Below are positions 43,432 through 55,672 of a DNA stretch of 64,000 nucleotides, piece after piece. The stretch comes from Rhodothermus marinus (GTDB taxonomy: Bacteria > Bacteroidota > Rhodothermia > Rhodothermales > Rhodothermaceae). A program made the translations under genes and the position numbers. Where the stretch lies: NCBI RefSeq assembly GCF_009936275.1, contig NZ_AP019797.1:2153890-2217889 (forward strand). The letters are read 5' to 3'. The notes under the pieces are model-generated. The model ran no database searches and was not told where the DNA came from. It saw nothing but the letters and a program-made list of their open reading frames with translations. Each line of letters begins with the position of its first letter. Positions within the stretch are counted from its first letter, which is position 1.

Positions 43432-44199
43432 TCAACGAAAGATAAGCCGGAAAGCCGCCACGCCGAGCCCCAGTTGCGCCACGCCCAGCGCAATGCCGGC
43501 CCGAAGGTCAAGCGATCGAATGCGCGGCCGCAGCGCCGGATCGCCGGTCTCCTCGTAGCGGGCATAGAGTCGGTCCGCCTGAAATTTGTAGTGAATGGAA
43601 ACGGCCGTGGCGGCCACAGCCACACCGAGCGCGGCATACGTGATCCAGTGCCGTCGTCGCACGGTGGGCCTCCAAGGCTGCACGTCGGGCGTGGCGACAT
43701 CCAGTGGCTGCAACAGCACCCGATGCCGGTTCCATACATCCTGTCCGGGCCAGAGCGTGGCCGGAGCGTAGCCTGAACGGACCAGATAAAGCGTGTCGCG
43801 CAGCGGTGCGTCGAAGGCGTCAAACAAAGGCGTTTCACCCAGCAGGTGCCGGTGCTCGGGCGGCCCGAGAAAAACCCGAGCTCCCGAGGGCACCGACTCG
43901 ATCCGGTAGTAGTAGCGGAAGATTGCCGCGACGTGGATCGTGTCGGCGGTCGTGTCCGGCAACGTGATCAGGCGAGGCGGGATGGCCCAGGTGTCGCCTT
44001 CGGGCGGCACCAGACGCAGCGTGCGTGCTCCGGGCGGGATGTGAAAAATGCGTCGGGCGGCCAGACCCAGCGCTACCGAATCGGCATAGACCCGGGCCTC
44101 CGGCCAGTTCGTGTCGAGCACGACGACCGGCTGGCTCCATCCGGAAACTACCGGCCAGAGTCCCAGGCACAGGCTAAGGACGCAGCGCCACCGCTTCAT
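43432..44199 (-). CDS. Membrane-anchored PEGA-like protein
   Basis: The start at 44199 (MKRWRCVLSLCLGLWPVVSG) gives a 255-residue protein with a signal peptide ending near VSGWSQ. Two PEGA-like segments follow (PEARVYADSVALGLAARRIF and RIESVPSGARVFLGPPEHRH). Two membrane helices come near the C-terminus (WITYAALGVAVAATAVSIHY, RAGIALGVAQLGLGVAAFRL). PEGA domains are extracytoplasmic beta-sandwich modules of surface proteins. The function is unknown. It overlaps the end of the upstream PQQ-propeller gene by 26 bases and is the last gene of that three-gene cluster. Confidence 0.75.
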   Translation of the reverse strand: MKRWRCVLSLCLGLWPVVSGWSQPVVVLDTNWPEARVYADSVALGLAARRIFHIPPGARTLRLVPPEGDTWAIPPRLITLPDTTADTIHVAAIFRYYYRIESVPSGARVFLGPPEHRHLLGETPLFDAFDAPLRDTLYLVRSGYAPATLWPGQDVWNRHRVLLQPLDVATPDVQPWRPTVRRRHWITYAALGVAVAATAVSIHYKFQADRLYARYEETGDPALRPRIRSLDLRAGIALGVAQLGLGVAAFRLIFR

Positions 44200-45292
44200 G
44201 ATCGCTCTGCAATAGATACACATGACGCGGACGGGTCAGGACGATCAGTCCGAAGGGTGAGTCGGCCAGATCGAGCACGCCGCCATCCAGTCGGGTTTCC
44301 CAGTGCAGGTGGCCGGAGGTCAGTTCCAGCGCCACCAGGCGCCCGCGCAGGTCGCCCACGTAGAGCACGCCGGCGGTGGTATCGACCACCGGGGATGCCA
44401 CGATGGCCGCCCCACCGGTCCACGTCCAGCGCACCGTGCCCGTGCGCAGCGTCAGCGCCCGGACGACACCATCGCCGCCGGCCACGTACACGGTCGATCC
44501 GGCCATGACCGGCGTGGTAAGGTGCACGGACGTGTCGGGAAGCGCCAGCGTCCAGGCCGTAGCCCCTGAAGCCGCTTCCAGCGCCACCAGACGCCCGCGG
44601 GTAGTGGGCACCAGCACCAGCCCGTCGGCAACCGCCAGGTCGGCATAGACGGGCCGGAGCCTCTGTCGCCAGCGCAGCCGGCCGGTTCGGGCCTCCAGCG
44701 CCACTACGCGGCCGCGTTTGTCGGCCACCACAAGCAGCTCGCCGACGCGCACCGGCCGCGCCCGCACGCCATCGAGCCCGGTCGCCTCGGGCTCCTGCGC
44801 CCAGCGTACCCGCCCGTCCTCCACGTCCAGCGCGTACACCCGCCCCCACCGCTCGGCCACGTACACGACCTCGCCGTCCAGCGTCAGGCCGGCCTCCACA
44901 CCATCGCCCGTGCGACGCCAGACGGTTCGGCGGCGGTACAGGTCGTAGGCCACCACCGCGGCATCGTCGAGCGCCACCGGCACCACCAGCAGCGACTTTC
45001 GGTGCGCTGGCACGCCCATCAGATCCCGGCCCACATCGAGCACGCCGCGCCGCCGGCCTTCGGGCAATTCGAAGGCATGCACGTCGCCTTTATGGTTGGT
45101 CACCAGCAGGATGCGCCCGGCCACCAGCGCCCGGACAGGAGCCGCCTCGACGTCGCGCCGCCAGCGCACCACCAGCGGCGGAGGCGCCGTCCACGTGGCT
45201 TCTTCGGGCGGCACCAGAGCCCCGACGGGCACCTGCAGCGAACGGCAGCCGCCCAGCACAAGCAATCCGATCAACCACAGCGCTCGACGCAT
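44174..45292 (-). CDS. PQQ-repeat beta-propeller lipoprotein
   Basis: The start at 45292 gives MRRALWLIGLLVLGGCRSLQ, a lipoprotein signal with the lipobox LGGC. The 372-residue protein then has seven or so PQQ-like blades (VYALDVEDGRVRWAQEP, VVALEARTGRLRWRQRL, LVALEAASGATAWTLAL, LVALELTSGHLHWETRL). It resembles BamB, the scaffold lipoprotein of the outer-membrane assembly machine, but the name is not certain. Its start codon shares one base with the stop of the large peptidase/propeller/barrel gene (TGATG). This coupling to a predicted outer-membrane barrel gene is consistent with an envelope role. Confidence 0.88.
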   Translation of the reverse strand: MRRALWLIGLLVLGGCRSLQVPVGALVPPEEATWTAPPPLVVRWRRDVEAAPVRALVAGRILLVTNHKGDVHAFELPEGRRRGVLDVGRDLMGVPAHRKSLLVVPVALDDAAVVAYDLYRRRTVWRRTGDGVEAGLTLDGEVVYVAERWGRVYALDVEDGRVRWAQEPEATGLDGVRARPVRVGELLVVADKRGRVVALEARTGRLRWRQRLRPVYADLAVADGLVLVPTTRGRLVALEAASGATAWTLALPDTSVHLTTPVMAGSTVYVAGGDGVVRALTLRTGTVRWTWTGGAAIVASPVVDTTAGVLYVGDLRGRLVALELTSGHLHWETRLDGGVLDLADSPFGLIVLTRPRHVYLLQSDHEAVALRP

Positions 45293-48240
45293 CAGAAATC
45301 CCATCCGAAGAAAAACTGCCGGAACGTCCGCTCGCGATGGCGGAAGCCGTCGCGGTAGCGGTACCCGATGTCGTAGCGCAGCACCAGTCCACCGAGCAGG
45401 TTCAGCCGGAAGCCCAGTCCGATGGCGCCCAGCGTCTCGCCCGCATAAAGTTGCGGCTGGCGCTCGTTGTAGTCGTCGTTCCACACGTGCGCTGCATCGA
45501 AAAACAGGGCACCGCGCAGGTTGGCAATGCCGAACGGTGCCAGCAGCGGAATGTAGAGCGAGGGCGCTTCCAGAATCGGGAAGCGCAGTTCGTGCGAGGT
45601 GAACCAGAGCTTGCGGCCGCGCACATCGAACAGCGGGAAGCCGCGCAGATCCCAGCTTCCGCCCAGAAACCACAGCCGGGCTTCGCGGCCTTCGTTCATT
45701 CGGAGCAGCCCCCAGGACGCCAGCGTGACGTTGCGCATCAGCCGTAGATAGTGGCGCACGTCCAGACTGAGCGTGTAGTAGCTCACGTTGGAATAGCGCA
45801 GGTCGGACGTGTAACCCACGGTCAGGTTGGCGCGCCAGCCCTCAACAGGGCCATTGGCACCGTAGAGCGCGTCGTCGTGCACGAAGGCCAGCGCATTCGA
45901 CAGCAGCAGTGCCCGGCGCCGAACGCCCCGGATCGCCACGCGCTTGTCGCTCCAGGCCAGCGCCGTGTTCAGTTCGATGCGCTGGAAGGTCGAAATCGGA
46001 TAGCTCAGCGCGCCGTAGCCGCCCACGAGTTCTTCCCAGAGCAGCGGATATTCGGCGGCCGCATCCGGATCGGTCAGGTCGAAGCGCAGGCCGGCAAAGC
46101 GGTAAAGGCCATAGCCCACGTCGGTGCGGCGATGGAGCTGCACGCGCGAGACGGCTACGTTCAGGCCTTTGAGCAGTTCGCCGCTGCCCCGGCCGGTGTG
46201 GAAGACCGTCACGTACCAGCGATCGTCGCCCAGCAGATCCGAAAAGGCCAGCGCGGCCCCGCCGGTCGTGCCCCAGAGCGCGCTCTGGCTGATGCTGATG
46301 CCGCCGTAGGCCACGTCCAGGCTGTAGCGACGGCGGTAGGGCTTGCGGCGCACGCCGCTGTCGGCCGAGAGCCGTCCGGGCTTCCAGGGCGGCCGAGTCC
46401 CGAGCAGCGCCACCGTAGCCTGCTGGTGCGGCCGGGCCAGACGTTCGGCCACATCCGGTATCCGACGCACGGTGAACCGGTAGTGCTCGAACGCACTGAA
46501 GAGCAGGTGACCGTCGGGCGTCCAGAGCGGATCGAAAGCGGCTGTGGCCAGGTTCGTCAGCCGGTACAGCCGGCGCACCGGCGGGCCGACCGGTTCCGAT
46601 CCGGTCTCCGGATATGCAGCGGCCACCGGCCGGGTCGGCAGCGCAGGGGCCACCTCCACCGCCCAGACGTCGCGCGGACCGAAACGGCCGTCGGTTTCCA
46701 CCACCGCACTGGCGAACACCACGTAGCGACCGTCCGGACTCCACCGCGGCTCCCGATCGCGTCGCCACCCGTCGGTGAGCTGGCGAAGCTGTCCGGTATG
46801 GAAGTCGTAGAGAAACAGATTCATGCCGTAGCGGTCGCCCCAGGCCGTGCGGTCCGATGCGAAGACCAGGTAGCGGCCATCGGGACTCCAGGCCGGGTCG
46901 CGGTCGTCGTAGAGGTCGCGCGTGAGCCGCTCAAGTCGTTCGGTATCCAGCTCCAGCACATAGAGATCGATCCAGCCGCCCTCGTCGATCGCACTGAAGG
47001 CCAGCCGCGTGCCGTCCGGACTCCACGTCGGACTGTAGAGCGCCACCAGTCGGGGGAAGCGGTACGTGTTTACGAGTTCTTCCCGCTCCAGGTCGTACAG
47101 GTGCAGCACGTCCCCTTCTCCGCTTCGGGTGGTGAAGGCCAGCACGCCTTCGGCCGACACGTCCATGCGGTCTTCCAGCAGGTTGATCGACTCGAAGCGC
47201 TCACTCCGGCCCGTGCGGATCAGCGTTTTCGGTTTTCCCTGCGGGCGATAGGCCGAGTCGACCGGCAGCGCGTACAGATTCGTGTAGGCTCCTTCGTTGC
47301 CCAGGTAATACACGAAACGCCGACCGTCCCGGCGGCGGTAGACGATGGGCTTCGCGCTGAACCCCCGCGCCACAATGGCTTCGGAAGCCAGCGACGGCAG
47401 CGTCTGACGGGGCAGCTCCGGCAGGTACCGTTCTTTCAGCCATTGCTCCCAGCGATCCGAAATCGTGTAAAAATCCTCGCCCAGCACGTGCTCCATCACC
47501 CGCCGGAAGTCGCGGTCGATCCAGAATTGTTCGATCAGCTCCAGCAGCTTTTCCTCGCCGTACGTTTCGGCAATGAACCGGCAGAGCGCTTCGCCCTCTT
47601 TGTACATGAGAAAGGTGCCGTAGATGCGGTACATGTTCTCCAGCGGCACCAGATAGTTCGCATAGAGCGCATCGCGCAGGATCATCTCGTGCTGGTCGTC
47701 GGGCGGGCCCGACCAGTACTCGGCCAGCCCTTCGGTGAACCAGAGCGGCAGATAGCGATCGGGCGGCACCCGGTGATCGCGCAGCACCTGAAAGGCCCGA
47801 TTGAAGGTGAACACGTGAACGAGTTCGTGCCAGATCACCCGTCGGAAGCGATACAGATTGCCGCTGGCCGGAATTACAACGCGTCCCTTGATCAGCTCGA
47901 AAAAGCCACCCACGCCTTCCGGAATGAAGCCCGGCGTCGTGTTCGTCTGCTGGAAATGGTAGGGAGCCGCGTAAAAGATGATGGGCGTGCGCCGCGGCAG
48001 CGTGTAGTTGAAGCGCTGCTGGAGCGTGCGATAGGCTTCCTCGGCAAAATAGGCGCCGTGCTCGGCCAGCGCCTGCATTTCAGGATAATAGTAGATGTCG
48101 AAGTGTTCGGTCTGCAGGACGTGCCAGTCGAAGCGCTCGTACTGGATCTTGTTCTTGCCGAAGTGCGACTCGTAGAACTGCGCCGACGCGGCCGACGCCA
48201 TCAGCACACCCAGGCCCAGCCCCAGCAGAAGTGCACGCAT
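45292..48240 (-). CDS. Metallopeptidase / TolB-like propeller / Omp85-like barrel fusion
   Basis: The 982-residue protein starts with a signal peptide (MRALLLGLGLGVLMASAASA). A gluzincin-type peptidase region follows, with HELVH (His138, Glu139, His142) and the downstream ligand Glu170 in FTEGLAEYW. The middle part has TolB/WD40-like repeats (YSPTWSPDGTRLAFSAI, DPAWSPDGRYLVFASD, EPRWSPDGRYVVFAS). The last third (from about residue 640) is a beta-rich surface-antigen barrel (GGISISQSALWGTTGGAALA, ALSYPISTFQRIELNTALAW) ending in an aromatic FFFGWDF, as outer-membrane barrels do. Such basic-secretory-protease/propeller/Omp85 proteins occur in Bacteroidota, and their role is not established. Confidence 0.85.
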   Translation of the reverse strand: MRALLLGLGLGVLMASAASAQFYESHFGKNKIQYERFDWHVLQTEHFDIYYYPEMQALAEHGAYFAEEAYRTLQQRFNYTLPRRTPIIFYAAPYHFQQTNTTPGFIPEGVGGFFELIKGRVVIPASGNLYRFRRVIWHELVHVFTFNRAFQVLRDHRVPPDRYLPLWFTEGLAEYWSGPPDDQHEMILRDALYANYLVPLENMYRIYGTFLMYKEGEALCRFIAETYGEEKLLELIEQFWIDRDFRRVMEHVLGEDFYTISDRWEQWLKERYLPELPRQTLPSLASEAIVARGFSAKPIVYRRRDGRRFVYYLGNEGAYTNLYALPVDSAYRPQGKPKTLIRTGRSERFESINLLEDRMDVSAEGVLAFTTRSGEGDVLHLYDLEREELVNTYRFPRLVALYSPTWSPDGTRLAFSAIDEGGWIDLYVLELDTERLERLTRDLYDDRDPAWSPDGRYLVFASDRTAWGDRYGMNLFLYDFHTGQLRQLTDGWRRDREPRWSPDGRYVVFASAVVETDGRFGPRDVWAVEVAPALPTRPVAAAYPETGSEPVGPPVRRLYRLTNLATAAFDPLWTPDGHLLFSAFEHYRFTVRRIPDVAERLARPHQQATVALLGTRPPWKPGRLSADSGVRRKPYRRRYSLDVAYGGISISQSALWGTTGGAALAFSDLLGDDRWYVTVFHTGRGSGELLKGLNVAVSRVQLHRRTDVGYGLYRFAGLRFDLTDPDAAAEYPLLWEELVGGYGALSYPISTFQRIELNTALAWSDKRVAIRGVRRRALLLSNALAFVHDDALYGANGPVEGWRANLTVGYTSDLRYSNVSYYTLSLDVRHYLRLMRNVTLASWGLLRMNEGREARLWFLGGSWDLRGFPLFDVRGRKLWFTSHELRFPILEAPSLYIPLLAPFGIANLRGALFFDAAHVWNDDYNERQPQLYAGETLGAIGLGFRLNLLGGLVLRYDIGYRYRDGFRHRERTFRQFFFGWDF

Positions 48241-49274: not shown

Positions 49275-50033
49275 CTATTGCGTCCGACCGGCCGCCCACA
49301 GGATTCCGCCCAGCAGGTGCTGCCGGAACAGCGGCTCCGCGTAGCTTTCCTTCGTATGCCCCATGGCCGTGTACCAGGCCCGTCCGCCGTCATAGACATG
49401 GTACCACGAGATCGGATGATCCTCACCCATCTCGCCGCCCTCGTAGGTGGTTTCGTCCAGCACGGCCAGCACCTGTACGCCCTTCGAGCGCGGGTTTTCG
49501 CGGAAGTTGTACCATTCGTCCGTGCGCGTCCAGGCTTCGGGCAGCTCCTGCGTGGACGGATGCGTGCGGTCCACCACGCGCACGACGGCCTCCTGAATAT
49601 GCGGGTGATTCTTGAAGTAAGCGCCCACCAGATTGCCGTACCAGGGCCAGTCATACTCCGTGTCGCTGGCGGCATGGACACCCACGAACCCGCCTCCGTT
49701 CTGGATGTAGGCCCGAAAGGCCTCCTGCTGAAGCGCGTCGAGCACGTCGCCCGACGTATTCAGGAAGACCACCACGGCAAACTGCGCCAGCGAGTCGGGT
49801 TGAAAGTAGGCCGGGTCTTCCGTGGCCGTCACCTGAAAACCGTGCGCGGCGCCCAGCTCCTGAATCGCGGCGATGCCGTCCGGAATCGAATCGTGCCGGT
49901 AACCGGCGGTCCGGCTGAAGACCAGCACCCGGAAGGCGGGTTCGTCGTCGGCGGGTTGGCCGTTGCCCGGCATCGAGCAGGCGCCCAGCAGAAGCAGGGC
50001 GCTCAGCAGCAGAGATAGGTGAAGTAGCCGCAT
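49275..50033 (-). CDS. ThuA-domain lipoprotein
   Basis: The 252-residue protein has a lipoprotein signal (LSLLLSALLLLGACSMPG) and a ThuA domain (RVLVFSRTAGYRHDSIPDGI, FAVVVFLNTSGDVLDALQQE, GGGFVGVHAASDTEYDWPWY, HPISWYHVYDGGRAWYTAMG, HLLGGILWAAG). ThuA is named from the rhizobial trehalose-utilisation genes thuAB, in which ThuB makes 3-keto-trehalose. In the sugar locus here it is a natural partner for the keto-sugar enzymes. The reaction is not established. It lies 35 bases beyond the terminator of the adjacent operon and is 68 bases upstream of the ST7-like gene. Confidence 0.88.
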   Translation of the reverse strand: MRLLHLSLLLSALLLLGACSMPGNGQPADDEPAFRVLVFSRTAGYRHDSIPDGIAAIQELGAAHGFQVTATEDPAYFQPDSLAQFAVVVFLNTSGDVLDALQQEAFRAYIQNGGGFVGVHAASDTEYDWPWYGNLVGAYFKNHPHIQEAVVRVVDRTHPSTQELPEAWTRTDEWYNFRENPRSKGVQVLAVLDETTYEGGEMGEDHPISWYHVYDGGRAWYTAMGHTKESYAEPLFRQHLLGGILWAAGRTQ

Positions 50034-50068
50034 GTCAGTCTACCGGTTCTGATTTATGGCAACCAAAC

Positions 50069-50098
50069 AAAAGGGCGGCCGAAGCGGTCCGCCCTTTT
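50069..50098 (-). terminator. Bidirectional terminator closing the GMC/isomerase operon
   Basis: AAAAGGGCGG (50069-50078) pairs perfectly with CCGCCCTTTT (50089-50098) around a ten-base loop. It gives a T4 tail on either strand. It lies 45 bases after the last gene of the minus-strand operon that begins at 57403. Confidence 0.9.
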
Positions 50099-50143
50099 CA
50101 AGATAAGACAAACGTGGGCAGAAACTACCCCATGGCGGCGACT

Positions 50144-51163
50144 TCAGGTCGCCTGGGCCTGGCGTTCGCGGGCGAAGGCCGCGTCAAACGCGGCCGCCGA
50201 CGGTGGGAAGTCCATCGCTTTGACGCGGGCACAGGCTTCACGGGCGCCGTGCTCGCGGTCCATGCCGATGTCTTCCCACTCGATTGAAAGCGGGCCGTCG
50301 TAGCCAATCCGGTTCAGTGCCCGGATGATCTCCTCGAAGCGGATGTTGCCGCGACCGATCGAGCGGAAGTCCCAGTAGCGGTCGCGGTGTCCGAACTCCA
50401 GGTGCCCGCCAAAGACACCGGAACGCTTCGGCACGGGCGACCACCAGACGTCCTTCATGTGCACGTGGTAGATGCGGTCCGCAAAGCGCTCGATGAACGC
50501 CACGTAGTCGACGCCCTGGTAGCCCAGATGGCTTGGATCGTAGTTGAAGCCGAACGATTCGCGATAACCGATGGCCTCCAGCGCGCGCTCGGCCGACGAA
50601 ATGTCGAAGGCGATCTCGGTCGGGTGCACTTCGAGCGCGAAGCGCACGCCTACCTCCTCGAATACATCCAGGATTGGATTCCAGCGACGGGCAAAATCCT
50701 CGTAGCCCTTCTCGATCATGCCGGGCAGCAGCGGCGGGAAGGCGTAGAGCAGATGCCAGATGCTGCTCCCCGTAAAGCCGTTGACCACCTTGACCCCCAG
50801 TTTGGCGGCCGCCCGGGCGGTGTCCATCATCTCCCGGGCTGCCCGCTGGCGCACGCCTTCGGGGTCGCCGTCGCCCCATACGTGCGGCGGCAGGATCGCC
50901 TTGTGGCGCTCGTCGATGTTGTCGCAGACGGCCTGGCCCACCAGGTGGTTACTGATAGCCCAGACCTTCAGCCCGTAGCGGGCCAGCAACTCCAGCCGCT
51001 CCTCGCAGTAGCCGTCCTCTTTGAGGGCGCGCTGCACGTCGAAGTGATCGCCCCAGCAGGCCAGCTCCAGGCCATCGTAGCCCCATTCGGCCGCTTTCTT
51101 GGCGAGCGTCTCCAGCGGCAGGTCCGCCCACTGTCCGGTAAACAGGGTAACCGGTCGTGCCAT
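50144..51163 (-). CDS. Sugar phosphate isomerase/epimerase family protein (cytoplasmic)
   Basis: The 339-residue TIM-barrel protein of the xylose-isomerase-like/AP-endonuclease-2 family has [90 protein letters not shown] and [15 protein letters not shown]. Candidate metal ligands are the Glu, Asp/His, His and Glu of these segments. There is no signal peptide. It lies 21 bases after a Gfo/Idh/MocA gene. In 3-keto-glycoside pathways this fold acts as a lyase, hydratase or epimerase, so a role on keto-sugars is inferred. Confidence 0.88.
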
Positions 51164-51184
51164 GGCTCTGTCAGGTTTGGATGT

Positions 51185-52357
51185 TCAGGCTCCGGGTGGC
51201 GTGTAGCGTGCATCGACCCAGGCGCGACGGCGGCCGCTTTCGAGCGCGGTCAGGATGAAGTGCACGCCGCGCGCTCCGTCCTGTACGGTCGGAAAATCCA
51301 GATCGAGCGGATCGGGCTTTTCGCCGGCCAGCCGCGCCTTGAGCGTCCGGGCAAAGTTCAGGTAGATGTTCGCGAACGCTTCGATAAAGGCTTCCGGATG
51401 GCCTGAAGGCAGGCGCGAAGCCCGGCGAGCGGCCGGGGCCAGGTATTCGTTGCCCCGCTTGTAGACCTCCTCGGGCCGGTCGGAATAGCGCACGTACAGG
51501 TAGTTCGGTTCTTCCTGATGCCACTCGAGCGAGGCTTTCGTGCCGTAGACCCGGATCCGCAGGTTGTTTTCTTCGCCCACCGATACCTGCGAGGCGTAGA
51601 GGATGCCACGAGCACCGTTCTGGTAGTGGACGAGCAGGTTCGCGTCGTCCTCGACCTTGCGGCCGGGCACGAACGTGGTAATGTCGGCGCACAGGCGGTC
51701 CAGCTCCAGTCCGGTGATGTAGCGGGCCAGGTGTTCGGCATGCGAGCCGATGTCGCCCAGCGCCCCGGCACCGGCCAGCTTCGGATCGGTGCGCCAGACG
51801 GCCTGCTTCTGACCGGTCTGCTCCAGCGGTGTGGCCAGCCAGCCCTGCGGATACTCGACCACGATCTTGCGAATCTCGCCCAGCAGCCCCTCCTGCACCA
51901 TGGCCCGCGCCTGCTTGACCATGGGGTAGCCCGAGTAGTTGTGCGTCAGCGCAAAGAGCACGTTGTGGCGGGCCACCAGCCGGCACAGATCCTCGGCCTC
52001 TTCCAGCGTGGTCGTCATGGGCTTGTCGCACACCACATGAAAGCCGGCTTCGATGAAGGCTTTCGCAATCGGGTAATGCAGATGATTGGGCGTGACGATC
52101 GACACGAAGTCGATCCGTTCCTCGGGCGGCAGCGCCGCCTCTTTTTCGACCATTTCCTCGTAGGAACGATAGACGCGCCGGGGATCCAGGTGCAGCAGGG
52201 CGCCCATCTGGCGCGACTTTTCCGGATCGGACGAAAAAGCCCCGGCCACCAGTTCGATCTCACCATCCAGCGCGGCGGCTTTGCGATGTACGGCACCGAT
52301 AAAGGCACCGGGGCCGCCGCCTACCATGCCATAGCGAAGCTTACGGTTCAACGGCAT
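51185..52357 (-). CDS. Gfo/Idh/MocA family oxidoreductase (cytoplasmic)
   Basis: The 390-residue protein has an NAD(P)-binding start ([19 protein letters not shown]), the sugar-dehydrogenase Lys in [20 protein letters not shown] and the catalytic His region [19 protein letters not shown]. It has no signal peptide. Family members oxidise or reduce a sugar ring hydroxyl, often at C3. The next gene upstream is a Tat-signal isomerase (14-base gap) and the next downstream another isomerase (21 bases). Confidence 0.92.
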
Positions 52358-52371
52358 CGCTTTTTTGAATT

Positions 52372-53232
52372 TTAGAAGGTCAGTTGCGACAGGTACTCGT
52401 AGCTGCGCCGAACGCTGGCCAGCGGATCCTCGGGTTGGTCGTGTTCCACAAAATAGTGCTGGAACTGCGCCTGTGCAAAGATCTTCGCGAAGTCGATGGT
52501 CCCCTGCCCTACGTCCGTCATCTGCCGCTCGGCCGTCATGTCCTTGACGTGGCAGAGCGGAAAGCGTTCGGGGTGCTGCTGCAGGTAGGCCAGCGGATCG
52601 TGCCCGGCGTAGGTGATCCAGTACAGGTCCAGCTCCATCTTGACCAGCTCCGGATCCGTCTCGGCCAGCAGCACGTCGTAGGGCACCTGATCGTCGAGGC
52701 GGGCAAACTCGAAATCGTGGTTGTGGTAGGCGAACTGCACGCCTGCAGCCCTGCAGGCCTCCCCCCAGCGGTTGAAGCGCTCGGCCCAGCGCCGGTAGTC
52801 GTCGAGCGTCTGGCGCTGCTCGGGCGGCAGCCAGGGCACCACCACGTAGCGATGCCCCAGCACCTGTGCGGCCTCCAGCGTGGCCTCCAGATTTTCTTCG
52901 AGCGCCTGGTAGGGCACATGCGTGGCGGGAGCCGAAAGTCCCAGGTTTTCGAGCATCTGATGCAGCTCCTGCAGCGTGTAGTTGTAGTAACCCGCAAATT
53001 CCACCTCGCGATAGCCGATCTCGGCCACCTGCTCCAGCGTACGCGGCACGTCCTGCTCCATGAGCGTCCGCACCGTGTAGAGCTGCAGCCCGATGCGTTC
53101 CAGGCGGCGCGTGCCACCCGAGGCGTTCTGGCTCTGTGAAGACTGGCTTTCGGATGGACGGCAGCCCAGCGCCACCGTCAGCCCTCCCAGCGCCAGCCCA
53201 CCAGCCGTGCGCAGAAAATCGCGGCGATCCAT
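52372..53232 (-). CDS. Tat-signal sugar phosphate isomerase/epimerase family protein
   Basis: The 286-residue protein begins MDRRDFLRTAGGLALGGLTV, a twin-arginine signal whose cysteine (ALGC) may be lipidated. The mature part is an AP-endonuclease-2-type TIM barrel (EIGYREVEFAGYYNYTLQEL, VQFAYHNHDFEFARLD, VKMELDLYWITYAGHDPLAY, LCHVKDMTAERQMTDVGQGT). It therefore acts outside the cytoplasm, unlike the next isomerase. The His/Asp/Glu metal ligands of the fold appear present. Export of an enzyme of this fold is unusual outside keto-glycoside loci. Confidence 0.88.
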   Translation of the reverse strand: MDRRDFLRTAGGLALGGLTVALGCRPSESQSSQSQNASGGTRRLERIGLQLYTVRTLMEQDVPRTLEQVAEIGYREVEFAGYYNYTLQELHQMLENLGLSAPATHVPYQALEENLEATLEAAQVLGHRYVVVPWLPPEQRQTLDDYRRWAERFNRWGEACRAAGVQFAYHNHDFEFARLDDQVPYDVLLAETDPELVKMELDLYWITYAGHDPLAYLQQHPERFPLCHVKDMTAERQMTDVGQGTIDFAKIFAQAQFQHYFVEHDQPEDPLASVRRSYEYLSQLTF

Positions 53233-53269
53233 GGCAAAACGGTTGGATGGTGACAGGATCTGTAGAGAA

Positions 53270-53932
53270 TCACGCCCAGGCGCGGCCGATCTGGTCGTAG
53301 GGCACGCAGGCGTCGTAGCGCCCGGGCACCAGGTTGAGCCGCAGTTCCTGCGTGGCTCCCACTTCCGAGGTGTAGTAACCCACCACCGTCAGCTCCTTCA
53401 TCACCCGGAAAAACGGCCGCAGCTCCACCGTCAGCGTGCGTGGTGGGCGCCCCTGCGCGATGTCTTCGGCCGATGTGTCTGGCCCGTCGACGATCTGGCC
53501 CGTGGCCCGGTCGATCACCACGCGGCGCGGCTCGGTCTGGCGGGCCTCCTGCTCCAGCTCCTGCAACAGCTGCACCTGCTGTTCCTCCGAAGCCCGCACG
53601 AACGGTCGTCCGAACCGCTCCTGCGCCAGCGCATCCACCCGGGAGAGCTCCTGCAGAAAGTGCTCGCGCTCGGCCGCGTACATCCAGTCCGTCAGCATCC
53701 GGTCGATGAACTCCGGCACACCGGCCGCACGGGCGCCCGGCGTGTCGGTCTCCGGAATGATCAGCTCGGCGATCGTGGCCACCAGCTCGTGCTGATCGGA
53801 CGAGAGCGTCTGTGGCCGGTAGCCCGGCGCCGAACCGGCCCGGCAGCCACCCAGCACGCCCGCAATCGTCGACATCGACAGCGCCCCGCCCGTCAGCAGG
53901 GCCAGCCGCTTCAATGCTTCGCGTCGATCCAT
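53270..53932 (-). CDS. Gluconate 2-dehydrogenase subunit 3 family protein (GMC partner)
   Basis: The 220-residue protein begins MDRREALKRLALLTGGALSM, a twin-arginine signal with a cysteine after GGC, and contains LVATIAELIIPETDTPGARA, AGVPEFIDRMLTDWMY, FRVMKELTVVGYYTSEVGA and CVPYDQIGRAWA, the family's hallmark segments. These small subunits bind GMC flavoproteins (gluconate, glucose and glucoside 3-dehydrogenases) and carry them through the Tat system. The two GMC genes upstream lack signal peptides, so this subunit probably hitch-hikes them to the periplasm. It lies 18 bases after the first GMC gene. Confidence 0.9.
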   Translation of the reverse strand: MDRREALKRLALLTGGALSMSTIAGVLGGCRAGSAPGYRPQTLSSDQHELVATIAELIIPETDTPGARAAGVPEFIDRMLTDWMYAAEREHFLQELSRVDALAQERFGRPFVRASEEQQVQLLQELEQEARQTEPRRVVIDRATGQIVDGPDTSAEDIAQGRPPRTLTVELRPFFRVMKELTVVGYYTSEVGATQELRLNLVPGRYDACVPYDQIGRAWA

Positions 53933-53950
53933 AGCTTTATGCGCTCGGTT

Positions 53951-55672
53951 TTACAGGTTGCCTTTTTTGAGTTGTTCGACGGCATAGTGCGCCGCCCGCG
54001 CCGTCAGCGCCATGTAGGTGATCGAGGGGTTCTGACAGGCCGACGAAGCCATGCAGGCCCCATCGGTCACGAACACGTTCGGCACGTCGTGCATCTGGTT
54101 GTAGGCGTTCAGCACCGACGTCTTCGGATCCCGACCCATCCGCGCCGTCCCCATCTCGTGAATGCACAGCCCCGGATGCGCGAACTCGATCCCGTCGTAC
54201 ACCTGGATATTCCGGGCGCCGGCCGCCTCGAGCATCTCGGCCGCGCTCTGCGCCATGTCTTTGCGCATGGCCAGCTCGTTCTCGCCCCAGGTGCAGTGGA
54301 CGCGCAACAGCGGCATTCCCCAGGGGTCCGTGCGCTCCGGGTCCAGCTCCACGTAGTTCTCGTAACGCGGCAGCATCTCGCCCCAGGCCCCCAGTCCCAT
54401 GATCCACGGCCCCGGATCACGCAGGGCTTTTTTGAACGCAGCGCCGAAGCCATTCATGTTCACGCCCCGGTCCCACCCTGGCCGCGAGGCGCCTCCCTGA
54501 TAGCCGAAGCCCCGGAGGTAGTCCGACCGGTGCGTGGCGCGATCGCCCAGGTTTCGAAAACGCGGAATGTAAATACCGTTGGGCCGATCGCCGTAGTAGT
54601 ACCGGTCCTCGAAGCCCGGGATCTCTCCGCTGGCACCGACCACGAAGTGATGATCCATGAGGTAGTGGCCCAGCACCCCACTCGAATTGCCCAGCCCGTT
54701 CGGAAAACGAGGCGTCTTCGAGTTCAACAGAATCTGCGTCGTCCCCAGCGTCGAAGCGCACAGGAAAATGATCCGCCCGTAAAACTCCAGCATCTCCTTC
54801 GTCTCCCGGTCGATCACCCGCACCCCCACGGCCCGGTCCTTCTCCTCGTCGTAGATCACACTGTGCACAATGCTGTTGGGCCGTAGCGTCAGGTTCCCCG
54901 TCGCCCGCGCCGCCGGAAGCGTGGCACTCAGGCTCGAAAAATACGCCCCCGGTGTGCAGCCCCGCTCGCAGACGCCGCAGTAATGGCAGGCCGCACGGCC
55001 GTTCAGGGGTACGGTCAGCACGGCCACACGCCCGATGGTCATTTTGCGACCGGGGAAAGCTTTTTCGATGCGTTCCTTGACGTGCAACTCGACGCAGTTC
55101 ATCGGCATCGGCGGCAAAAACTGACCGTCCGGAAGCTGCGGCAAGCCCTCGGCCTGACCGCTGATCCCCGCAAAACGCTCCACATAGTCGTACCACGGCG
55201 CAATGTCCCGGTAACGGATCGGCCAGTCCACCCCGAAGCCATCCCGGGCGTTCGCCTCGAAGTCCAGGTCGCTCCACCGGTAACACTGGCGCCCCCACAT
55301 GAGTGAACGCCCGCCTACCCGATCCCCGCGAATCCAGATGAACGGCTCCAGCTGGATGTAGGGATTTTCTTTGTCGTTGATGAACAGGTGCCTGGTATCT
55401 TCGCGACAGGCGTAGCAGTTTTTCTGAATGGCATACTCCTCGTCGAAAAGGCTGCGCTCGCCGCGCCCGCGAAAGGAGAATTTCCAGGGCGGTTGGTGCT
55501 CGGTCACGTAGTCCTTGCCGTGCTCCAGGGGACGGCCGCGTTCCAGCACGAGCGTCTTCAGGCCCAGTTCGCAGAGCTCTTTGGCCGCCCAGCCTCCTGA
55601 AATGCCCGATCCCACCACGATCGCATCGTACACCTCCGGCGGCCGTGCCACAAACACGTTCTTTTTCACCAT
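53951..55672 (-). CDS. GMC family sugar oxidoreductase (glucoside 3-dehydrogenase-like), copy 1
   Basis: The 573-residue flavoprotein has an FAD-binding VVGSGISGGWAAKELCELGL near the N-terminus, a four-cysteine motif ACHYCGVCERGC (Cys229, 232, 235, 239) that could bind an Fe-S cluster, and the GMC active site His505 (CIHEMGTARMG) and Asn548 (ACQNPSIT). This pattern fits membrane-coupled glucose/glucoside dehydrogenases that work with a subunit-3 partner, encoded directly downstream. It lies 12 bases after the second GMC copy, to which it is nearly identical at both ends. Confidence 0.9.
   Translation of the reverse strand: MVKKNVFVARPPEVYDAIVVGSGISGGWAAKELCELGLKTLVLERGRPLEHGKDYVTEHQPPWKFSFRGRGERSLFDEEYAIQKNCYACREDTRHLFINDKENPYIQLEPFIWIRGDRVGGRSLMWGRQCYRWSDLDFEANARDGFGVDWPIRYRDIAPWYDYVERFAGISGQAEGLPQLPDGQFLPPMPMNCVELHVKERIEKAFPGRKMTIGRVAVLTVPLNGRAACHYCGVCERGCTPGAYFSSLSATLPAARATGNLTLRPNSIVHSVIYDEEKDRAVGVRVIDRETKEMLEFYGRIIFLCASTLGTTQILLNSKTPRFPNGLGNSSGVLGHYLMDHHFVVGASGEIPGFEDRYYYGDRPNGIYIPRFRNLGDRATHRSDYLRGFGYQGGASRPGWDRGVNMNGFGAAFKKALRDPGPWIMGLGAWGEMLPRYENYVELDPERTDPWGMPLLRVHCTWGENELAMRKDMAQSAAEMLEAAGARNIQVYDGIEFAHPGLCIHEMGTARMGRDPKTSVLNAYNQMHDVPNVFVTDGACMASSACQNPSITYMALTARAAHYAVEQLKKGNL

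Follow-up and report, generated by a model that had tools for sequence, protein, structure and literature searches.

Peptidase, propeller and Omp85-type domains in a single Rhodothermus marinus protein encoded beside a BamB-like lipoprotein

The A, B and C genes and the domains of their products

The window analysed here is a 64,000-nucleotide stretch of the Rhodothermus marinus genome (RefSeq assembly GCF_009936275.1, contig NZ_AP019797.1, positions 2,153,890 to 2,217,889). It contains three consecutive genes on the reverse strand, whose products we refer to as proteins A, B and C. Protein A combines an apparent signal peptide, a gluzincin peptidase domain, a propeller resembling those of TolB and S9 peptidases, and an Omp85-type C-terminal domain; protein B is a PQQ propeller lipoprotein resembling BamB; and protein C has a match to PEGA and a hydrophobic C-terminal segment. 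The features are listed in Table 1.

Table 1. Features of the A-B-C locus (window coordinates) and of three relatives of A from the same genome (coordinates preceded by the name of the locus).
Feature	Coordinates	Strand	Remarks
Protein A	45292..48240	-	ATG start, 982 aa
Apparent signal peptide of A, residues 1-20	48181..48240	-	by eye, from A itself and the N-termini of relatives
Peptidase domain, about residues 38-272	47425..48129	-	Peptidase_MA_2 match at 127-269
HELVH zinc motif, residues 138-142	47815..47829	-	H138, E139 and H142 invariant in 42/42 A sequences and 3/3 paralogues
EGLAE, residues 170-174	47719..47733	-	both glutamates invariant in 42/42; E170 probably the third zinc ligand
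Propeller, about residues 290-620	46381..47373	-	PD40; TolB by phmmer and Foldseek; S9, tricorn and TolB structure matches
Omp85-type barrel region (predicted), about residues 630-982	45295..46353	-	Omp85 Pfam match, hhalign, periodicity
RGF, residues 866-868	45637..45645	-	counterpart of Omp85 (V)RGF/Y; R866 and G867 in 42/42
C-terminal FFFGWDF	45295..45315	-	last residue F in 41/42, Y in 1/42
Protein B	44174..45304	-	372 aa from 45292, 376 aa from 45304
Lipobox cysteine of B (LGGC)	45245..45247	-	Cys invariant in 14/14
A/B gene overlap, counted from the likelier B start	45292..45304	-	13 nt
Protein C	43432..44223	-	start 44223 or 44199
Paralogue L040	L040: 2745-5864	-	beside mrdA/rodA-like genes (by eye)
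Paralogue L039	L039: 3696-7151	+	beside tig-clpP-like genes (by eye); ORF start probably too early
Paralogue L038	L038: 4170-7268	+	beside trk/sigma-factor-like genes (by eye); ORF start probably too early

Three Pfam families exceed their own curated cut-offs in protein A: Peptidase_MA_2 (PF13485) at residues 127-269 with 42.2 bits (cut-off 32.4), PD40 with 84.1 bits (cut-off 20.9) and Omp85 (PF01103) at residues 798-947 with 41.9 bits (cut-off 24), the last of which places A in the Omp85 superfamily by homology. An initial annotation of the window, made from the letters alone, had described a 982-residue protein with a HELVH motif, a propeller and an Omp85-type domain in that order, and the Pfam matches bear this out. 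All three families were also matched (E ≤ 0.01) in 25 of the 25 members of an orthologue alignment, and therefore the three-domain layout is not a product of chance. Conservation of single residues was determined in a set of 42 sequences, composed of the window protein, 20 relatives from the same order (Rhodothermales), 20 others and one protein from a Gemmatimonadetes metagenome-assembled genome (MAG), which is 37-39% identical to A.

Gluzincins (Peptidase MA) have an HExxH motif followed by a downstream glutamate, and both are present in A and in all 42 aligned sequences. From the gluzincin pattern, we take E170 to be this glutamate and probably the third zinc ligand. Judged by its invariant active-site residues, the peptidase of A looks active.

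The solved protein most closely related to A by sequence is TolB (phmmer, E 7e-20). Structure predictions were made with AlphaFold from an input of three sequences, for the whole protein and then for the barrel region alone. The model of the whole protein is poor (mean predicted local distance difference test score, pLDDT, 46.6) because of this small input; the peptidase and propeller were partly modelled, the former with uneven confidence (block pLDDT 25-87), and the barrel was unusable. Between about residues 290 and 653, the model aligns with the propellers of S9 peptidases, tricorn and TolB (Z 16.9-21.5); these alignments cover mainly model residues 280-653 and carry no statement on the fold of the peptidase or the barrel. 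The likeness to TolB and to the S9 and tricorn propellers thus lies in the sequence and fold of the propeller, and A is not itself a TolB, since it scores far below the cut-off of the TolB model (TIGR02800, 89.3 versus 343.15 bits).

For the C-terminal region, an hhalign comparison with a profile built from two Omp85 barrels of the same genome (L121 and L120) gave a probability of 96% over 148 columns and placed the RGF of A onto the MRGY of L121, the BamA of this genome. We take this RGF to be the counterpart of the Omp85 (V)RGF/Y motif. Within A, an alternating-residue periodicity above that of within-region shuffles was found solely in the C-terminal part (z 3.2, versus -0.5 for the peptidase and -1.4 for the propeller); the scripts for periodicity, lipoboxes and hydrophobic segments are simple in-house ones, not standard predictors. 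The FFFGWDF terminus that had been noted before is indeed read in the translation of A, and the last residue is aromatic in all 42 aligned relatives. In the barrel region, where the Omp85 superfamily has a 16-stranded barrel, the pLDDT was about 18-35 in the model of the whole protein and 30.3 on average when the region was modelled alone; strands listed for the latter model are given no weight. Because these three-sequence models left the C-terminal region unresolved, homology is the ground on which we predict a C-terminal barrel.

No POTRA family was detected by hidden Markov model (HMM) searches, the only kind of test applied, in A (Pfam, E ≤ 0.1) or in the 25 members of the orthologue alignment (E ≤ 0.01), whereas L120 and L121 do show POTRA in the same kind of test. 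Protein A is not a BamA equivalog (TIGR03303, 20.2 bits versus a cut-off of 297.15).

Protein B matches PQQ_2 with 196.1 bits (cut-off 27.6), and its comparison with BamB structures gave E values of about 5e-20; better scores were obtained solely with the "Cake" proteins, which we take to be designs. A lipobox was found in 37 of 39 B homologues. These results agree with the earlier description of B as a coupled, BamB-like PQQ lipoprotein, that is, a PQQ_2 propeller on a lipoprotein anchor. It differs from BamB in being coupled to A and in missing the cut-off for a BamB equivalog (TIGR03300, 126.7 versus 285.2 bits). Among the six residues that follow the lipobox cysteine, 0-1 are acidic in the 37 homologues, compared with at least two in the surface lipoproteins of the β-barrel assembly machinery (BAM) of Bacteroides, according to the text available for PMC12578637. 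Therefore, B most likely faces the periplasm, as far as this signal can be read from sequence. No other PQQ_2 protein was found in this single-contig genome.

The junction of A and B contains the TGATG reported before, and the overlap of the two genes is probably longer, because an ATG of the kind used by relatives is also present in the window. Open reading frames (ORFs) for B that begin with MGFL/MGLL-like residues within the last codons of A were found in 17 of 39 relatives, several of which have no alternative ATG upstream of the signal sequence. Position 45304 is thus the likelier start of B, rather than 45292. Among the 43 genomes with both genes in the phylum-wide draw, 32 have a B match that starts before the A match has ended.

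The evidence on protein C is more modest. Its PEGA match (PF08308) is marginal (22.3 bits, barely over the cut-off of 20.8), and of the two homologues scanned one has a match (L081, 33.1 bits) and one has none (L087). The proposal of a PEGA-like partner therefore holds, marginally, and outside the order C occurs less consistently. Of 36 homologues of C, 19 have two hydrophobic segments near the C terminus, 15 have one and 2 have none; an inner-membrane location of C is a guess. A KADxxYxxY...D stretch near its C terminus appears conserved by eye and matches no Pfam family at E ≤ 0.1.

Co-inheritance of the three genes

Within the order, 60 genomes were surveyed, 52 of which have A. B adjoins A on the same strand in 51 of these, whereas in the remaining one the contig ends at A; all three genes are contiguous, in the order A-B-C, in 48 of the 60 genomes. 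The eight genomes without A are six of the family f13, G048, and G005, a 230-contig draft with a fragment of C. For these counts, split matches were merged by hand for A (G017, G022 and G059), B (G015, G019, G029, G044 and G056) and C (G023 and G053), and the C-terminal part of A was used for G031 and G052. The f13 genomes (G018, G028, G037, G043, G049 and G055) lack A, C and a full-length B and have kept relatives of the paralogues, so that they form a natural deletion series. One of them contains a 1158-residue frame with repeated partial PQQ matches (G043:C1:1136402-1137340).

A draw of 198 genomes from the phylum gave the same picture. A is present in 45 genomes from 17 families and B, in full length or nearly so, in 43: both genes occur in 43 genomes, A alone in two, B alone in none and neither in 153 (Fisher's p = 1e-41, a value that ignores shared ancestry). 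A scattered occurrence of the three genes had been named beforehand as an outcome that would speak against their association, and the opposite was found. The draws for A and B were taken as identical from their equal size and matching handles, match-free genomes being listed in part. The count for A includes G108, where the gene is split over two contigs; that for B includes G101, cut by a contig end, and G064 and G115, whose matches end at 332 and 347 of 382, and leaves out 16 more genomes with partial PQQ matches. B adjoins A in 41 of the 43 genomes with both genes and is located elsewhere in G094 and G224. In G224, B and C lie side by side, away from A (L128 4395-6034). Weak PQQ candidates adjoin A in the two A-only genomes (G015 and G060), the one in G015 consisting of two weak matches (E 3e-8 and 7e-4).

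Outside the order, neighbourhoods were inspected for 20 of the 30 A-bearing genomes. B was found beside A in 18 of the 20 by iterated profile and in 15 by one pass, and C in 16 and 10, respectively; the iterated profiles were built over the same stretches that they score. The flanking genes served as a control and were searched in a single phmmer pass with the window protein as query, which has the same sensitivity as the one-pass counts of B and C. YqeY and CvpA, encoded 3' of C, were each found in 14 of 20 stretches of the order, M14 in 2 of 20, and TPR and ThuA, which lie upstream, in 1 of 20; none of the five was found in the 21 stretches outside the order. Because B and C, unlike these five genes, are found there, the trio, and above all the A-B pair, is kept beyond general gene order.

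Beyond the phylum, the A gene of the Gemmatimonadetes MAG adjoins a PQQ_2 gene (96.4 bits), and C was not found at this locus. Genome contigs scanned with A alone yielded three loci, one of which (L044) matches just residues 305-581, and the viral contigs scanned contained no relative of A.

Related proteins in the genome and in the literature

The genome encodes three further relatives of A (L038, L039 and L040), all of which retain HExxH and E170 in the alignment. L039 is the only one of these paralogues with PD40, Peptidase_MA_2 and Omp85 according to Pfam. A genome-wide PQQ_2 search revealed no own PQQ_2 partner for any of the three. L121 exceeds the NCBI cut-off for BamA (390.1 versus 297.15 bits), and L120 is a second POTRA-type Omp85 protein, with a TamB-like ORF after it by eye. 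Because a separate BamA is present, the role of main insertase does not fall to A, which is an additional Omp85 protein. No clear TolB was found in the genome, which has 27 matches to the TolB model, none over its cut-off. A tricorn-like protein of 1079 residues, with propellers, a PDZ-like part and an S41-like end, was noted by eye at L041 3480-6719.

The closest described layout is that of WD40-Omp85, a TolB-like propeller followed by an Omp85 barrel (Heinz and Lithgow 2014, PMC4104836). The order PD40 then Omp85 gives A this layout and, as in WD40-Omp85, the TolB-like propeller stands ahead of the Omp85 domain and POTRA is lacking. A differs in the gluzincin peptidase that precedes the propeller and in its co-inherited partner genes. 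According to the available text of PMC4104836, the N-terminal domains described for Omp85 proteins are POTRA, a propeller, patatin or PF00149, and "peptidase" does not occur in its main text as the start of a word; A-type proteins may already be counted among its WD40-Omp85 members. The same paper describes an Omp85 "Metallo" (metalloprotease) subfamily with PF00149, which resembles A in having an enzyme-like domain ahead of the barrel. Protein A does not belong to it, as PF00149 is absent from A at E ≤ 0.1 (Pfam). In the patatin-Omp85 protein PlpD, too, an N-terminal enzyme is carried on an Omp85-type barrel; PlpD, however, is a homodimer with a patatin-like phospholipase and POTRA, whereas in A the enzyme is a metallopeptidase and a propeller is present (PMC11116518, in the part available). 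A propeller-Omp85 protein without POTRA is thus already known, and the peptidase and the co-inherited partners make A a new variant. Among the titles and abstract beginnings listed for mostly open-access papers, preprints not included, no account of a peptidase on an Omp85 protein or of the trio was found.

A proposed role at the outer membrane and its alternatives

The initial annotation had interpreted the three proteins as a possible outer-membrane complex that combines proteolysis with barrel function. Its domain order and gene coupling are established here, together with the invariant active-site residues and the co-occurrence; for the complex, the proteolysis and its combination with a barrel, as for orientation, substrate and the role of C, we infer the following arrangement. 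Protein A would be an outer-membrane-anchored metallopeptidase that faces the periplasm, with B docked onto it, and would trim or degrade envelope proteins, a reading to which we give about even chances.

Under this proposal, the Omp85-type domain would form a POTRA-less barrel embedded in the outer membrane. On the periplasmic side of this barrel, the propeller would take the position otherwise occupied by POTRA domains, with the gluzincin domain beyond. We place both domains in the periplasm because of the analogy with PlpD and because B lacks an acidic surface signal. The propeller may hold or gate the substrate for the peptidase. In S9 and tricorn enzymes the propeller gates the peptidase, and its position next to the peptidase in A suggests the same. 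B, a second propeller anchored by lipid, could dock onto A from the inner leaflet as BamB does on BamA, and C might tether the unit to, or signal from, the inner membrane via its hydrophobic C terminus, which is the least supported step. The unit would then trim or degrade misfolded or stalled envelope proteins, a role like that of Escherichia coli BepA built onto its own barrel. BepA, a periplasmic zinc metallopeptidase, either promotes LptD or degrades it, probably at BAM, as stated in the available part of PMC8423444; it is a separate M48 enzyme, whereas A carries an Omp85 domain of its own. By these analogies, the role most likely lies in outer-membrane or periplasmic proteostasis.

Several results weigh against this proposal. 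The three-sequence structure predictions yield no barrel topology for A, and although TolB is the best Foldseek match of the model (E 3e-13), the TM-scores are low (0.17 and 0.38). Two of the paralogues (L040 and L038) have PD40 over its cut-off, without Peptidase_MA_2 or Omp85 even at E ≤ 1, and, since the paralogues have no B of their own, proteins of this kind can work without one. The six f13 genomes and G048 live without A altogether. The B candidates adjacent to A in G060 and G228 remain below the PQQ_2 cut-off of 27.6 (23.4 and 26.2 bits), and a search of G060 with the A4 profile (E ≤ 1e-5) detects no B. In the Gemmatimonadetes MAG, the PQQ gene next to A (L043 5485-6612) is convergent and has a signal-peptide-like start and no lipobox. 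As for C, no match to it was found next to A in 4 of the 20 stretches outside the order, and the window protein has one C-terminal hydrophobic segment over the threshold, with two present in just 19 of the 36 homologues.

A more elaborate version, which we consider rather doubtful, would make A, B and C a trans-envelope machine of a kind not described before, in which an outer-membrane barrel carries its own gated metallopeptidase, as a kind of "outer-membrane tricorn", while B adds the propeller on a lipid anchor and C, as a PEGA protein, tethers the unit to the inner membrane. If this were true, B would come nearest to BamB among the proteins of these Bacteroidota, with a protease-barrel protein in place of BamA as its partner, which would bear on the uncertainty, expressed in the accessible text of PMC12578637, as to whether any Bacteroidota have BamB.

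Alternatively, A and B could be an auxiliary assembly or translocation machine, whose barrel inserts or exports particular proteins that the peptidase processes en route. Assembly or translocation is the general job of Omp85 proteins, B is BamB-like and the sole PQQ_2 protein found in the genome, and WD40-Omp85 has been called reminiscent of a BamA-BamB fusion (PMC4104836, in the text available). However, A has no POTRA family, the genome already contains BamA and a second POTRA-type Omp85 protein, and f13 lacks A, so that we regard this alternative as unlikely. A maturation protease devoted to a single class of exported proteins, as opposed to general quality control, is similarly improbable. 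The several peptidase-propeller paralogues in the genome do suggest specialisation, and the partner is co-inherited, but with none of the five flanking genes kept outside the order no candidate substrate gene was observed to travel with the trio.

The location of the peptidase bears on another alternative, in which it is displayed on the cell surface in a type Vd-like manner and acts on an external protein. A secreted enzyme does precede an Omp85 barrel in A, as in PlpD, which was first classed as type Vd; the enzyme domain of PlpD, however, was shown to be periplasmic (PMC11116518, as far as available). In addition, both the peptidase and the propeller would need to cross the membrane, and B carries no acidic surface-export signal, which makes surface display quite improbable. 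Finally, some peptidase-like domains are pseudoenzymes, and that of A could be a non-catalytic binding module; since all 42 aligned sequences have kept HExxH and E170 unchanged, this is hardly credible.

If the preferred reading, that of a periplasm-facing peptidase anchored by its own barrel, is true, A places proteolysis on an outer-membrane barrel protein. In any case, A and B are inherited jointly across 17 families of the phylum and occur in one Gemmatimonadetes MAG, and A is a testable partner for the sole BamB-like protein found in the genome. BamB has been surveyed across proteobacteria (PMC3359395), and BAM of Bacteroidota has been described for Flavobacterium and Bacteroides (PMC12611786 and PMC12578637), all cited here from the parts available. 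Our results suggest that envelope machinery beyond these two models may be organised differently.

A promoter scan gave 0 sites (0.8 expected), and 14 terminator-like sites were counted compared with 4.9 (standard deviation 2.5) in shuffles, a difference that we leave uninterpreted. Elsewhere in the window, the region from 49275 to 55672 encodes a ThuA-like protein (Pfam) and, by eye, sugar isomerase/dehydrogenase-like proteins and a GMC-type oxidoreductase. Between 32001 and 36000 the G+C content is 0.593, compared with 0.62-0.67 in the rest of the window.

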